A stretch of 44,747 bases of DNA, taken from positions 1 through 44,747 of the forward strand of contig DWXL01000008.1 in the NCBI GenBank assembly GCA_019119235.1. Reading direction: 5' to 3'. The translations under genes were made by a program, and so were the position numbers. Of this stretch, positions 5,226 to 40,382 are shown piece by piece. The first letter of the stretch is position 1, and each line of letters begins with the position of its first letter. Origin of the DNA: Candidatus Blautia excrementigallinarum (GTDB lineage Bacteria > Bacillota > Clostridia > Lachnospirales > Lachnospiraceae). Under the pieces are notes generated by a model. That model saw only the letters and a program-made list of their open reading frames with translations. It ran no database searches and was not told the origin of the DNA.

Positions 5226-6103
5226 AACTGCTCCTCCTTCTTATTCATAAACGAAAGCTGGAACACAGAGATCGCCACGATCACTACGAAGAACAGTACC
5301 GCATTGGCGCTCTGGAAGCCGAACTGTCCGCCGTCCATACCGTTTCTGTAGATCAGGTAGGAGATAGATTCCGTACTCTGTGCGGGACCGCCTTTGGTCA
5401 ACGCCATGATCTGGTCGAAAGCCATCAGGAAGTTCTTCATGCAGAGTACCATGTTAATGGTGAAAAACGGGATGATCAGAGGGAAGGTCAGGCTTTTGAA
5501 CTTCGTCCAGCCTGTAGCCCCATCGATGGAACCGGCCTCATAAACATCCTCCGGCACTGTCTGCAGACCAGAAATATAAATAATGGTGTTCATCGCTATG
5601 GACTGCCATGCGGCAACGATCACAATAGCGAACCATGCGGTTTTGGTGCTCGCCAGCATACTTCCGCTGAGGGCTTCGATGCCCAGAGCCTGTCCCACAG
5701 CGGGGATGATGTAGGTAAAAATAAAGCTGAAGATATAACCTACAACCAGTCCGCCCAGAACGTTGGGGATAAAGTAGATGCCTCGCAGCGCGCTCTTCGC
5801 GCGGATCTTGCTGTTCAGTCCCAGCGCCAGGATCAGGCTGACCACGTTAACAATGATCGTTGAGACAATGGCAAACTTAAAGGTAAACAGATAGGATTTT
5901 CCCACGCGGGCGTCCTGGAACAGATCGATATAGTTCCGGAATCCTACCCATTCATAACTTCCATATCCTTTGAAGTTGGTAAAACTGTAAATAAAACCTT
6001 TGATCAGAGGCAGTGTGTTAAATGCGAAAAACAGCACCAGGATCGGGATTGTGATCAGAAGAAACGTGCGTTTTCTTTCATTGCCCTTTGCCTTATCCAT
6101 CAT
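5222..6103 (-). CDS. Carbohydrate ABC transporter permease (CUT1, MalF/MsmF-like)
   Basis: 293 aa, polytopic, EAGSIDGATGWTKFKSLTFPLIIP EAA loop; overlaps the binding-protein gene. Confidence 0.93.
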   Translation of the reverse strand: MMDKAKGNERKRTFLLITIPILVLFFAFNTLPLIKGFIYSFTNFKGYGSYEWVGFRNYIDLFQDARVGKSYLFTFKFAIVSTIIVNVVSLILALGLNSKIRAKSALRGIYFIPNVLGGLVVGYIFSFIFTYIIPAVGQALGIEALSGSMLASTKTAWFAIVIVAAWQSIAMNTIIYISGLQTVPEDVYEAGSIDGATGWTKFKSLTFPLIIPFFTINMVLCMKNFLMAFDQIMALTKGGPAQSTESISYLIYRNGMDGGQFGFQSANAVLFFVVIVAISVFQLSFMNKKEEQL

Positions 6104-7398
6104 GATTCCTCTCCTCCTTCCCCGTGTTCTGCTTCATACTCCTGAACCTTGCGGATCAGGTCACGGTTGTAGCGCGCCCAGTCAGTGTCAAACTTCTCAA
6201 GGAATGCGTCTGTATCCCCGTCCATGATATAAGTCTGGATCATGGCATCCACCGCCATCTCTGTGGGATAATGATGATCCTGATAGTCAACCATCTTACC
6301 TTCTTCGATATACTCTGTCATGCCTTCCAGCTGCTCCGGAAGATTGAACTCACCCTCTTTACAGGGGATCGCGTTCTGATCGTCCAGATAGATCTGGATA
6401 TTCTCATCTTCCATCATAAAACGGAGCACCTCGTAGGCTGCTTCTTTGTTCTCGCAGTCTTCCATCACAGAAAACAGAAGGTCGACGCCGGAGTTGAGGA
6501 CCTGTCCCTCCGCCTCGTCGTTTGCCGGGAATACAAAGGAATCGATGTTCATATCCGGGTTTACGGACAGGATCTGCGGAACCGCGTAGCTTCCGATGCA
6601 GTACATCGCGGATTCGCCTCTGGCGAATGCGGTACACGCGTCGTTGTAGCTGTAAGCTGTGGGATCGGGCTGCGCGTAGGGCAGAAGCTGAAGGATCTTC
6701 TCCGCAGTCTCCCTGTATTCTTCCGCAAAAGTGGTCTCGCCCCTGTTCACCTGCTGGCATACATCCGCCGGCGCAAGATCGCAGGCCATAGCGTTCCACG
6801 GCGCCAGACAGGTCCAGGTATCCTTGAACCCAAAGTACAGCGGCTGCTGGCCGGAAGCCTGGATGGTATCGAGAAGCGTCAGGAATTCATCCCATGTGGT
6901 GGGAATCTCCCATCCGTTCTCCTCAAACATATCTTTGTTGTAAAGAATGCCGGCGGCGTTGGCCACATAGGGAACCGCGTATGTACCTTCTGTGGGTACG
7001 AATTCCAAATTCTCGAGAATATCCAGATAGGACTGCTTCACATCCGCGAGGCCGTCAAAATCCGAGATATCCATGAGCATGTCGGAATCCAGGAAGTTGG
7101 AGTAGTTGATATCTCCTCCGATACCGATGATGTCCGGCTGGTCTTCCTTGATAAAACGTGTCTTCAGAATCGTCATGGCTTCATTGGGCGACTCGATGGT
7201 CAGCTCAATGTCGTCGTGGGTGGCATTGAACTTCTCTTCCATCTGCTCAAAAGCCTTGACGGCTTCCGGCTTGTACTGGACCATCTCGATCTGGACTTTC
7301 CCGCTGTCTGAGGAAGAATCCCCGCATCCTGTCAGCGCGACTCCCGCACCCAGAACCACGGCGCCAAGTCCCACGGCAACTAATGCTTGTTTTTTCAT
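6100..7398 (-). CDS. Extracellular solute-binding lipoprotein (family 1 sugar ABC SBP)
   Basis: 432 aa with signal peptide and lipobox LTGCGDSS; SBP_bac_1-like sequence; first gene of the sugar ABC operon. Confidence 0.92.
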   Translation of the reverse strand: MKKQALVAVGLGAVVLGAGVALTGCGDSSSDSGKVQIEMVQYKPEAVKAFEQMEEKFNATHDDIELTIESPNEAMTILKTRFIKEDQPDIIGIGGDINYSNFLDSDMLMDISDFDGLADVKQSYLDILENLEFVPTEGTYAVPYVANAAGILYNKDMFEENGWEIPTTWDEFLTLLDTIQASGQQPLYFGFKDTWTCLAPWNAMACDLAPADVCQQVNRGETTFAEEYRETAEKILQLLPYAQPDPTAYSYNDACTAFARGESAMYCIGSYAVPQILSVNPDMNIDSFVFPANDEAEGQVLNSGVDLLFSVMEDCENKEAAYEVLRFMMEDENIQIYLDDQNAIPCKEGEFNLPEQLEGMTEYIEEGKMVDYQDHHYPTEMAVDAMIQTYIMDGDTDAFLEKFDTDWARYNRDLIRKVQEYEAEHGEGGEES

Positions 7399-9241: not shown

Positions 9242-10180
9242 TCAGTAAAGATAATTCCTGTTTACATAGCCGTTCTTATTCAGTTTCGGAGAGTATACAT
9301 ACCAGTAACCGTTATCGCTGGAATCGATCACCTGTACCGTATCTCCGGTATAAAGTTCTCCGATCTCATTGCGGGAATCATAGGCCTTCGCTGTCCGCAG
9401 CGCCAGGTAGCCTTTGCTCACGCTCACCGTATAGGTAGGATAGGACGGCCCTCCTGAAAGATACTCTCTGTTGACATAACCGTTTCTGTCATGCTTGGGG
9501 GAATACACATACCAGTATGTACTGTCACTGGTATCAATAAGCTGCACAACGTCTCCTGTGTACAGTTCCCCGATCTCATTGGCGGAATCATAGGCCTTCG
9601 CTGTCCGCAGCGCCAGATAGCCGCTGCTCACACTGACAGTCCTGACGTCTCCGGAAAGAGTGGGCGCAATCAGATAATCTCTGTTCACATAGCCGCATCT
9701 CCCATGCTTCGGGGAATATACATACCAGTAAGTACCGTCGCTGGTATCCGTCACCTGAACGGTATCCCCTGTATACAGTTCGCCGATCTCGTTGCGGGAA
9801 TCATAGGCTTTCGCCGTACGCAGCGCCAGATAACCTTTGCTCACGCTCACCGTCCAGGTATTGGACGCGCCCACAAGATAATTCCTGTTTACATAGCCGG
9901 ATTTCCCGTACTTCGGCGAGTATACGTACCAGTAAGTGGAATCGCTGGTATCCGTTACGTCTACCGTATCTCCGGTGTAAAGCTCTCCGATCTCGTTGCG
10001 GGAATCGTAAGCCTTCGCCGTCCGCAGAGCCAGATAACCCTTATCCACGACTACGGTATAGGTACTGGCCGCGTAGCTGTCCTTCGCCGTAACCGGCAGG
10101 GAAAGAACAAATACAAAGACAAGCAGCGCCGCCCACTTCAGAAGAGAAAATCCGTTCTGTCCTTCCATTTTCTTTTTCAT
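9242..10180 (-). CDS. Secreted protein with four bacterial SH3-like (SH3_3) repeats and no catalytic domain
   Basis: Signal peptide then four near-identical units each containing GYLALRTAKAYDS-NEIGELYTGD-V...YWYVYSPK...GYVNR-YL; start at ATG 10180 with GGAGG. Confidence 0.9.
   Translation of the reverse strand: MKKKMEGQNGFSLLKWAALLVFVFVLSLPVTAKDSYAASTYTVVVDKGYLALRTAKAYDSRNEIGELYTGDTVDVTDTSDSTYWYVYSPKYGKSGYVNRNYLVGASNTWTVSVSKGYLALRTAKAYDSRNEIGELYTGDTVQVTDTSDGTYWYVYSPKHGRCGYVNRDYLIAPTLSGDVRTVSVSSGYLALRTAKAYDSANEIGELYTGDVVQLIDTSDSTYWYVYSPKHDRNGYVNREYLSGGPSYPTYTVSVSKGYLALRTAKAYDSRNEIGELYTGDTVQVIDSSDNGYWYVYSPKLNKNGYVNRNYLY
9245..10060 (-). repeat. Four tandem SH3-module coding repeats (about 204-213 bp each)
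   Basis: GYLALRTAKAYDS occurs at residues 61, 129, 200 and 270 of the 325-aa ORF; spacing 68, 71, 70 aa with strong nucleotide conservation. Confidence 0.93.
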
Positions 10181-10260
10181 AGTGAAAACCTCCTTTACTT
10201 TAAAATATTTGCCGCACATCCGCCTTCCCCCTGCGGCTGCGCTTAACCCCCTGTAATTAT

Positions 10261-11337
10261 TTAACTGTTATAAAAGTCATAGATCTGGCGGCTGAGAGAT
10301 GCGATGGTACTCTGAGCTGATCCCGCCTCGGTCAGATTCTCCGACATAAATACAATGATCAGTTCATTGGACACATTATAGATGATCCCCGCGTCGTTCT
10401 CCACATCTCCAAGTTCTCCCGTCTTATTCGCCACGCTGACGCCCGCCGGCATCTGCGCGGGAATCTTGTTCCGCCTGGTCTGTGCCGCCAGAAGCTGGAA
10501 TTCTGCCGATGCGACGGAGTCTCCCTCCCTGTGCCCCTGGTAGACACGTTTCAGGAAGTTTCCGCAGTCCATAACAGAAGTGTAATTATCGTCAAATTCA
10601 TTGCTGTGCAGAAGAAGCCTTCCCATGTGGGTGTCATTGTATCCGTTAGCCATACAGTATTCATTGACCACGCTCATTCCGGCGTTCCCGTCTCCGCTGC
10701 CCAGATAGGATGTAAGCGTATTGGCGGCGTCGTTATCGCTGACCGTGATCATGGAATACAGGTTGGAATCTACGCTGTCCTGCCCGTACTGGGAGATCAG
10801 AAGATCATAATTCTCATAGACAGCTCCCATGATATAAAGCTTGATCAGGCTGGCAGCCTGCATCTGGTGCGAGTTGACGCTTCCCTCTGTGTTACCTGAT
10901 ATATTGCAGATATACGCGGACCAGCTCCCATTAGCTGACGGAAACGCCAGGCTGGACAGAAGTCCCTGCATCCGCTCATCGGTTACCGGTTCTGAACTCT
11001 GCTGCCCGAATACGCTGCCTTCCTCCGACGGAGGCGAAAGCGTTCCCGCTTCCCCGCCAGTCTCTTCCCCGCTGCTCACATCCGGCGCCGGTGAAACACT
11101 GACCGTTGGCGCCGGCTCTGCCGTGTCTGCCTCAGGCGACTGCGGCGCGGGGCCGAACACTTCGCCTGTTCCGCCGGTCTCCTCCTCCGCTTTCTCCTCC
11201 GGTGTGGGAGTCACGCCGGCGTCTACCACCTTCACATCTGCTTCCTCCTGTTTCCCGGGGACGCATCCGCCCTGAGCCAGAAGCAGCAATATACTTAGAC
11301 CGAAAATACCTGCCTTTTTTAATGATGATCTGCACAT
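10261..11337 (-). CDS. Class A beta-lactamase-like serine hydrolase lipoprotein
   Basis: Lipobox LLAQGGC; P/S/T/E-rich linker; SxxK = ASLIK, SDN = SDNDAAN, KTG = NKTGELG. Confidence 0.85.
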   Translation of the reverse strand: MCRSSLKKAGIFGLSILLLLAQGGCVPGKQEEADVKVVDAGVTPTPEEKAEEETGGTGEVFGPAPQSPEADTAEPAPTVSVSPAPDVSSGEETGGEAGTLSPPSEEGSVFGQQSSEPVTDERMQGLLSSLAFPSANGSWSAYICNISGNTEGSVNSHQMQAASLIKLYIMGAVYENYDLLISQYGQDSVDSNLYSMITVSDNDAANTLTSYLGSGDGNAGMSVVNEYCMANGYNDTHMGRLLLHSNEFDDNYTSVMDCGNFLKRVYQGHREGDSVASAEFQLLAAQTRRNKIPAQMPAGVSVANKTGELGDVENDAGIIYNVSNELIIVFMSENLTEAGSAQSTIASLSRQIYDFYNS

Positions 11338-11506
11338 AATGGTTATTATTCCTTTTCTGAATGTAGCGTTAGTATACAATATTTGTTAATATTATAAATT
11401 TATTTCACAGCCCCTGCAAGTATTTTCACTTTTCAAATTCTTTATTTTAGATTATCATATAGAATGTACCAATTTGTAAAATACAGATTCCGAGGGAGGA
11501 ACATCA

Positions 11507-37402: not shown

Positions 37403-37834
37403 TCAGATGATGATACCCATGTCCTGCATACCCTCTGCAATACTGTCCATATCATCATAATTGCAGTTCTCGCTCCACTTATCCTTGCTCCAGACCTCAA
37501 TCCTGTTCAGATTACCGGTCAGAACCACATCTTTCTCCAGACCCGCAAATTCCCGAAGCGTCTGAGGCACGAGAATTCTCCCCTGCTTGTCCAGTTCACA
37601 TGTAGTGGCTCCTGCTACAAAGAATCGTGAGAAGGTTCTTGCATTCTTATTTGTAAGTGGTAAGGCTCTGAGTTTCTCTTCAAAGGCCGTCCATTCGTCC
37701 ATGGGATATATGGAAAGACAGCCATCCAGTCCCTTCGTCAGAACGAACTCTTCTCCCAGCTGTTCTCTGAACCTGGAAGGAATGATCAGACGCCCCTTCG
37801 CGTCTATTGTGTGACTGTATTCGCCCATGAACAT
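37403..37834 (-). CDS. mraZ: Transcriptional regulator MraZ
   Basis: [48 protein letters not shown]; start placed at ATG 37834. Confidence 0.97.
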
Positions 37835-37853
37835 GTTACTCACCTACTCTCAC

Positions 37854-38067: not shown

Positions 38068-39270
38068 TTATTCATTTTCAGTCTTTGTATCTTCAGGATC
38101 AGTCTGTCCATCCTGCGGCTGAGCCTCAGATTCCGGGACAGATCCGTCCTGCACCGGATCCTCCGGTCCATTTTCTTTCTCAGCCGTCTGATCTTCCGGC
38201 TGAGATTCCGGATCTTTCGCTGATTCCGCTGTTTCTCCCGCATCGTCGCTGTCTGTACTCTCTTCTTTACTGTCAGGAGTTCCCGCTGCATTCTCTGCAG
38301 TTTTTTCTTCGCTTTCAGGAGTTTCACCTGCGTTCTCTCCAGTTTCCGGTTCATCGATTCTCTGTTCTTCTGCGGCATACAGTTCCCCTCTTCTGCGTTT
38401 ACTGAGGGCGCTGCGTTTTTTCGCCATTACCCTGCGCACAACCGCCGATATTCCACAGCCGAGGAACAAAAGCGCGTACACAGAAACAAACACCGGAAAA
38501 TCGGTTCCGGGTATTTTCAGAGAATCCCGGCGGAGCCATTCTGTTACTGTTCCGCCCAGACCGATCCCGGCCAGGTACCTGAGAAAAATCTCGCCCTGGT
38601 ATTTCTTTCTTCTCATATAAATAAGAAGAATAAAAAACAGGAATAAATACCAGACGCCAGCGTACAGAAAAAGCGGATGCGCCTGAATGTACGCCGTATC
38701 GCCCACTGTAACAAGATGTTCCTTAAGGCCTCCTGTGAGCAGGCTCTCCGGAACAACTTCCGCGGGAATCTGCATGGCGGCCAGGTTATCTGTATAGGAA
38801 CCGAAAAATTCTCTGTTGAAAAAGCAGCCCCATACTCCTATTATCTGCACGATCAGAAGTCCCATACTGGCAGTATCTGCCACCTTCATAAACGATACTC
38901 TGCGCAGCTTCAGATACAGCGCCGTAAGGAACACGCCGCCCAGAAGACCGCCCAGGAAAGACAGACCTCCGTTTCTGACGTCGCAGAGCTCCTGCAGCGT
39001 TTTCCCGCTGTAAAGATCCCATGACAATAGCACATAAAAAAATCTTCCCCCGGCAATTCCGCCCAGAAGCGCCGGAATCACTATCTCAAGATAAATATTC
39101 TGATTTTCTTTCTGACGTTTTGCCTGAAGGATCACAAAAGCAAGCGCCAGCAGCATTCCCACTGCCACCAGAATGCCGAACAAGGTGATCTCGTATCCCA
39201 TAACAGAAAAAGATACGGGCACACGGGCAAGTTCCAGTTTAAGATTTGGAAACCGAATTGACATATCCAT
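38068..39270 (-). CDS. Prolipoprotein diacylglyceryl transferase (Lgt)-family protein, divergent at catalytic positions, with acidic C-terminal tail
   Basis: Lgt topology and landmarks (GGRFFYVLLSW, NGGLSFLGGLLGG, GVWGCFFNREFFGSYTDNLAAMQIP, HPLFLYAGVWYL, GTVTEWLRRDSLKIPG); start at ATG 39270 preceded by AAGGGG. Confidence 0.85.
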   Translation of the reverse strand: MDMSIRFPNLKLELARVPVSFSVMGYEITLFGILVAVGMLLALAFVILQAKRQKENQNIYLEIVIPALLGGIAGGRFFYVLLSWDLYSGKTLQELCDVRNGGLSFLGGLLGGVFLTALYLKLRRVSFMKVADTASMGLLIVQIIGVWGCFFNREFFGSYTDNLAAMQIPAEVVPESLLTGGLKEHLVTVGDTAYIQAHPLFLYAGVWYLFLFFILLIYMRRKKYQGEIFLRYLAGIGLGGTVTEWLRRDSLKIPGTDFPVFVSVYALLFLGCGISAVVRRVMAKKRSALSKRRRGELYAAEEQRIDEPETGENAGETPESEEKTAENAAGTPDSKEESTDSDDAGETAESAKDPESQPEDQTAEKENGPEDPVQDGSVPESEAQPQDGQTDPEDTKTENE

Positions 39271-39284
39271 AGGCGGCCCCTTCA

Positions 39285-40382
39285 TCATACGTTAAAACGG
39301 AACAGGATCACATCGCCATCCTGAACCACATAGTCTTTTCCTTCCATTCTCACAAGGCCTTTCTCTCTCGCTCCCGCATAGGAACCGCTGTCAAGAAGGT
39401 CCTGGTAATTCACAACTTCCGCTTTGATAAAACCTCTTTCAAAATCCGTATGGATCTTGCCGGCAGCCTGCGGCGCCTTCGTGCCGATTTTGATCGTCCA
39501 GGCTCTTGTTTCATCTTCACCTGATGTAAGGAAGCTCATCAGCCCCAGCAGCCGGTAACTTGCCCGAACCAGCTTCTCAAGGCCGGACTCTTCAAGCCCC
39601 AGATCCTCAAGGAACATCTTCTTCTCATCATCGTCAAGTTCAGAAATCTCTTCTTCAATCTCGGCGCAGATCACAAACACTTCGCTCTTCTGTTCCGCCG
39701 CGTATTCTTTGACCGCCTTTACATTCTCATTGGAAGCCCCGTCGTCTGCCAGTTCATCCTCCGCCACATTGGCCGCATAGATGACCGGTTTCCATGTGAG
39801 AAGATTATAAGAAGGCATCCACGCTTCCTCATCCTCGTTCTCCGGTTCCAGTGTGATTGCCATCTTCCCGTCTTCCAGATGCGCCTTGATCTTCTGAAGG
39901 AAATCCAGCTCCTTCGCCGCTTCCTTATCCATTCTCGCCGCCTTGGTCACTTTGGCGATCCGGCGCTCCAGTATCTCCAGATCCGAAAAAATCAGTTCCA
40001 GATTAATCGTCTCAATATCGCGAAGGGGATCAATGCTTCCGTCCACATGGATAACATTGGGGTCCTCGAAGCAGCGGACCACATGAACGATGGCGTCTAC
40101 TTCACGTATGTTGGCCAGGAACTGGTTGCCCAGGCCTTCGCCTTTGGAAGCTCCTTTCACAAGACCGGCAATATCTACAAATTCGATCACTGCGGGAGTG
40201 ACTTTTTTTGAATGATAAAAGTCGCCCAGAAGCTTCAGTCTCTCATCCGGCACTGTAACCACTCCCACATTGGGATCTATGGTACAGAACGGATAGTTTG
40301 CAGATTCCGCTCCTGCTTTTGTCAGTGAATTGAACAGTGTACTTTTTCCCACATTGGGAAGGCCAACGATTCCTAATTTCAT
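39285..40382 (-). CDS. ychF: Redox-regulated P-loop ATPase/GTPase YchF
   Basis: [80 protein letters not shown]. Confidence 0.98.

Follow-up and report, generated by a model that had tools for sequence, protein, structure and literature searches.

Prolipoprotein diacylglyceryl transferase (Lgt) is usually regarded as an enzyme of high conservation, in many cases indispensable, and as an antibiotic target. In a 44,747-nucleotide stretch of a Blautia metagenome-assembled genome (MAG), referred to herein as the window, an lgt-family gene is found with substitutions at several catalytic positions, and the initial annotation of this DNA regarded its product as a catalytically dead or re-purposed paralogue (chaperone, regulator or different lipid chemistry) or else as a divergent Lgt. 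The locus raises the question of what this protein is, which enzyme lipidates the lipoproteins of its host, and why the gene is still there.

Gene, Locus and Family Assignment

The open reading frame (Table 1), with the motif GVWGCFFNREFFG and the GGLSFLGG and HPLFLYAG blocks, encodes a protein that scores 154.8 bits with PF01790 (cut-off 24.9) and 126.5 bits with TIGR00544 (cut-off 118.9), and these scores put its assignment to the Lgt family beyond chance. It also matches the E. coli Lgt 5azb in sequence (E = 8e-14). The AlphaFold model has a pLDDT mostly above 90 across the core; in a PDB comparison 5azb is its sole significant match (E = 6e-10, TM-score 0.73 on the target), and the predicted structure displays the seven-transmembrane Lgt fold with head and arms. 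With NF000778, which describes the GRIGC type of Lgt, the protein reaches 73.5 bits and stays under the cut-off of 334. The gene order is ychF, lgt, then mraZ and the division/cell-wall cluster. A search of genome contigs for related loci yielded no more than three relatives, of which one is distant; relatives of the window protein include a copy on a Blautia MAG contig (L033, 86% identical) and one from B. schinkii (L034).

Table 1. Features of the lgt locus, with residues of the window protein set against their E. coli Lgt equivalents.
Feature	Position	Strand	Basis
lgt-family gene, 406 aa; canonical-lineage Lgt, active site dismantled	38068..39288	(-)	ORF, profiles, AlphaFold fold
ychF, conserved neighbour, stop overlaps lgt start (ATGA)	39285..40382	(-)	ORF and synteny
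mraZ, start of dcw (division/cell wall) cluster, conserved neighbour	37403..37843	(-)	synteny
Acidic low-confidence (predicted disordered) C-terminal tail, residues 296-406	38071..38403	(-)	AlphaFold, dN/dS
F37 = E. coli Y26	39178..39180	(-)	alignment
L112 = E. coli H103 (Tyr in 58/60 canonical relatives)	38953..38955	(-)	alignment
V152 = E. coli R143	38833..38835	(-)	alignment
C155 = E. coli N146	38824..38826	(-)	alignment
A210 = E. coli E202	38659..38661	(-)	alignment
I242 = E. coli Y235	38563..38565	(-)	alignment
G246 = E. coli R239	38551..38553	(-)	alignment

The Blautia copies end in acidic tails, predicted to be disordered and poorly conserved in sequence, with a median length of 95 residues versus 13 in canonical relatives. 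In the window and in loci L036-L058 these tails are fast-evolving and rich in Glu, Pro and Ser, span 18 to 223 residues and follow a conserved basic stretch. From the known topology of E. coli Lgt, the tail presumably lies on the cytosolic side.

Catalytic Positions of the Window Copy

In an E. coli plate assay, R143A/E/K, Y26A/F/Q, the H103 mutants and E151A/Q were inactive, and the pocket that surrounds the cleaved bond is made up of R143 together with R239 (PMC4728403). PMC13251419 names Y26, H103, R143, N146, G154 and R239 as required by Lgt, and reports that the tested monoderm Lgts did not complement E. coli.

The substitutions first noted at the R143, N146, H103 and E202 positions are all present in the window copy, and two more had been overlooked, namely Phe37 for Y26 and Ile242 for Y235. 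At the R239 position Thr had been read; the gap-free alignment of GIGLGGTVTEWLRR with GYGAFRIIVEFFRQ places Gly246 there and assigns the Thr to position 240. Leucine does occupy the H103 position, but for Lachnospirales the change is from Tyr to Leu. Both arginines of phosphate binding and catalysis are thus replaced (Val152, Gly246), as are Y26, N146 and Y235 (Phe37, Cys155, Ile242). Kept, in E. coli numbering, are R73, G98, G99, G104, D129, G142, G145, N149, E151, G154, E243 and R246. The comparison, which carries residue numbers and mutant data from E. coli over to a monoderm, supports an active site dismantled beyond anything tested Lgt mutants tolerate. Residue loss is nevertheless no proof of inactivity, since the essentiality data come from E. 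coli, the monoderm Lgts tested fail to complement that host, and Lgts with a natural N146C exist.

The source is a fragmented MAG (2.18 Mb, 286 contigs, 78% complete), which could invite a sequencing, assembly or alignment artefact as explanation. This is hardly credible: an error at 38824-38835 is excluded by the independent Blautia MAG copy L033, which carries the same GVWGC...GLGG residues, neighbouring species are intermediate on the same branch, and the motif blocks align without gaps.

Orthology with the Canonical Lgt

Canonical Lgt adjoins ychF and/or mraZ in most of the sampled Lachnospiraceae genera, and all Blautia copies with sufficient upstream flank lie directly after ychF. In a tree obtained by a quick search after removal of the six key columns, with support of 80-100 at the relevant forks, the Blautia copies form one group (SH-aLRT 93) nested in the canonical sequences and far from the GRIGC type. 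Taken together, synteny and tree identify the window gene as the ancestral Lgt in its old position and the GRIGC gene as a separate lineage. By position (ychF-lgt-mraZ) as well as by phylogeny, the window gene is orthologous to the standard Lachnospiraceae Lgt. An origin as an extra paralogue is ruled out, so that of the initial description the dismantled active site stands and the paralogue status falls.

A Second Lgt in the Same Genomes

Two further Lgts of 255 residues, near-identical to each other and with the motif GRIGCLLAGCCYG, are encoded in the window genome, together with LspA. They score 359.7 and 356.3 bits with NF000778 (cut-off 334), and GRIGC copies are constant (33/33) at Y26, R143, C146, Y235 and R239. 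The expectation of a functional Lgt elsewhere in the genome was right in that other Lgts are present; these are, however, of the GRIGC(F/L)LAGCCYG type, and a copy with intact GRWGNF is not found in this 78%-complete assembly. The expectation had been built on a nearby lipoprotein with LTGCGDSS, which is indeed encoded at 6100-7398 as a lipoprotein-like solute-binding protein; a lipoprotein-like beta-lactamase-fold protein with LAQGGC lies at 10261-11379. At 9242-10219, a predicted secreted protein carries four near-identical SH3-like repeats (KGYLALRTAKAYDSRNEIGELYTGD...).

The two GRIGC copies of the window genome (L001 on G000:C64 and L002 on G000:C113) share 95.7% amino acid identity, a dS of 0.15 and the same upstream neighbour, and the other Blautia genomes searched hold one GRIGC copy of this kind each; the pair may reflect a co-binned second strain or a recent duplication. 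Upstream of the GRIGC lgt lies an ORF that in L001 (L001:731-1471) resembles the arginase family (PF00491, 42 bits); ORFs of similar appearance occupy the same place in other Blautia (L025, L029), possibly as operon partners. Additional second or third Lgt-family copies (L070 on G011:C131, L071 on G009:C7, L072 and L073) have GRIGCF-x-x-GCCYG-like motifs and 111-129 bits to PF01790, and their HP block deviates (IPVALIEA and the like); they may be located on mobile elements.

Each of the 150 Lachnospiraceae genera sampled (at least 95% completeness) has at least one Lgt. Eleven genera other than Blautia, whose sequences were read in near-complete genomes, encode no Lgt but the GRIGC type and also have LspA; this sole occurrence suggests that the GRIGC type is active in Lachnospiraceae. 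Two LspA genes occur in 7 of these 11 (G041, G044, G116, G138, G159, G163, G183). In several GRIGC-only genera (L167, L168, L169, L177 and others), ychF and mraZ adjoin each other and an lgt could not be detected in the gap.

Outside Blautia, the canonical copy is intact in nine dual-Lgt genomes and partly eroded in G059 and G131. A GRIGC-type copy was present in each of the 15 searched genomes that have a copy without R143. When about 390 family and about 390 class genomes were screened for DNA encoding G-[V/I/M]-W-G-x-F-F-N, a pattern blind to other forms of R143 loss, no such Lgt turned up outside Blautia. The three matches outside the genus fall in no Lgt gene and are thus attributed to chance.

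Graded Loss across Blautia

In the canonical set from Lachnospirales, Y26, R143, N146, N149, E151, E202, Y235, R239, E243 and R246 are invariant (60/60). Of 37 Blautia orthologues, 16 lack R143 (replaced by V, K, A or I), 22 lack N146 (mostly replaced by D, also by S, C or Y) and eight lack R239, and 32 copies have at least one change at Y26, R143, N146, Y235 and R239. The remaining five have all five sites intact and may still be active. At the other end stand the window copy and L033, in which all five are lost. The V/C pair of the window, whose conservation in orthologues had been put forward as a check, recurs in L033. The minimum number of changes on the tree, by parsimony, is four for R143, eight for N146 and four for R239, and the species neighbouring the window copy show intermediate states on its branch.

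Retention and Selection

Every Blautia genome of at least 97% completeness (21 of 21) carries one GRIGC and one long copy, neither with internal stops; a third Lgt is present in two of these genomes and a short, broken fragment in one. The ratios that follow come from the simple Nei-Gojobori method (NG86), with some pairs near saturation; saturated pairwise values for the canonical genera were left out. Between the window copy and L033, both without R143, the core dN/dS is 0.154, and other R143-less pairs give 0.135 (G007 versus G019) and 0.104 (G009 versus G019). The same kind of comparison among GRIGC copies yields 0.07-0.13. More distant R143-less pairs reach a core dN/dS of 0.46, with dS near saturation. 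The C-terminal tail of the window copy, for its part, has a dN/dS of about 1.1.

A redundant gene in slow neutral decay since the arrival of the GRIGC Lgt would be expected to erode its catalytic residues in the graded manner seen across Blautia and to be deleted in the end, as in the GRIGC-only genera, several of which no longer have lgt in the ychF-mraZ gap. Such a course is improbable. The ORF is intact in 21 of 21 near-complete genomes, core dN/dS is already at 0.10-0.16 in close orthologues without R143, and the start of lgt still overlaps the stop of ychF. The family-invariant structural sites (R73, G98, G99, G104, D129, G154, P197, F199 and G225) are kept in 37 of 37 Blautia copies. Universal retention and purifying selection together make plain decay unlikely.

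Possible Function of the Window Protein

Catalytic residues are lost, while the gene is kept and the remainder of its product evolves under purifying selection. The window gene probably encodes a membrane pseudoenzyme kept by selection, with lipidation carried out by the GRIGC Lgt. On this reading of the sequence data, the window protein would no longer transfer diacylglycerol, a task that the GRIGC Lgt would have taken over in Blautia. The retention of E151, E243 and R246 in the window copy counts against a pseudoenzyme.

The main rival is a divergent but active transferase, in which the long copy would lipidate a subset of lipoproteins with another donor lipid or catalytic arrangement while the GRIGC Lgt does the rest. 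Strong retention, purifying selection and the kept E151, E243, R246 and arm-2 glycines would fit an active enzyme, and PMC13251419 suggests another substrate or mechanism for Lgts that lack R143 and R239, such as those of Deinococci and Acidimicrobiales. Nonetheless, in the window copy Y26, R143, N146, E202, Y235 and R239 are all gone and no new conserved set of polar or charged residues lines the cavity; the newly conserved positions of the Blautia copies are mostly hydrophobic, Gly or Pro, or lie in the basic juxtamembrane end. The replacements also vary by species, which has the look of release rather than of a new fixed chemistry. We consider this alternative unlikely, though less so than decay.

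For a selected pseudoenzyme, the following course of events can be envisaged. Canonical Lgt was inherited vertically in Lachnospiraceae as ychF-lgt-mraZ, and in Blautia the presence of a GRIGC Lgt supplying the activity would have freed the canonical copy from diacylglyceryl transfer. In the window lineage, the residues that bind phosphatidylglycerol and catalyse transfer (Y26, R143, N146, E202, Y235 and R239) have been removed stepwise, while purifying selection keeps the membrane fold, the arm-2 glycines, and also R73, D129 and the hinge of the head domain, G154. Most likely, the protein would work by binding, or as a partner, next to the GRIGC Lgt and LspA, as suggested by the sites kept (arm-2, R73, D129 and the head hinge) versus those lost (the donor-lipid pocket). 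It could use its front cleft and arms, which are retained, to bind prolipoprotein signal peptides or lipid non-catalytically, and thereby serve the GRIGC Lgt/LspA pathway as a holdase, adaptor or regulator, tethered by its long acidic tail on the cytosolic side. It is a tentative proposal that the ancestral Lgt has become a non-catalytic component of lipoprotein biogenesis and that lipidation in Blautia, a common gut genus, is a two-protein system of enzyme and pseudoenzyme. A literature search on Blautia and diacylglyceryl transferase found no paper and no biochemical data on a Blautia Lgt.

Comparison with Known Lgts

The window copy shares its fold and motif layout with canonical Lgt (E. 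coli 5azb/5azc and the Lachnospiraceae ychF-lgt-mraZ Lgt), its gene position with the latter, and the arm-2 glycines, R73, D129, E151, G154, E243 and R246 with canonical Lgt in general. It differs in the replacement of Y26, H/Y103, R143, N146, E202, Y235 and R239 and in the added acidic tail of about 110 residues. The name 'prolipoprotein diacylglyceryl transferase', which a TIGR00544 score over the cut-off confers, should accordingly be read with caution, as it does not imply activity. The GRIGC-type Lgt (NF000778, PRK00052.3-4) belongs to the same family and likewise has Cys at the N146 position; unlike the window copy, it forms a separate lineage, keeps R143, R239, Y26 and Y235, and is a tailless protein of 255 residues that is not located at ychF.

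Other parallels come from the available part of PMC13251419. An archaeal lead was dropped, as the H. volcanii genes are described there as not homologous to the bacterial ones. MSMEG_5408 of M. smegmatis, cited there as a second Lgt of presumed low activity, is altered at two sites that are also changed in the window copy; it is described by Y26H and N146C only, whereas the window copy is the ancestral-locus orthologue and has lost R143 and R239 too. Both arginines are missing, as in the window copy, from Lgts of Deinococci, Acidimicrobiales, Anaerolineales, Acidobacteriales and Myxococcales. As far as that description goes, on which alone the comparison is based, these losses are found at the level of large groups and without a stepwise series. 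Blautia differs in that a single gut genus offers a natural series from an intact to a fully dismantled active site, among single-locus orthologues and with a substitute enzyme present. With such a series it becomes possible to test which of the 'essential' Lgt residues are needed for chemistry and which for structure, and what other tasks Lgt has in the cell.
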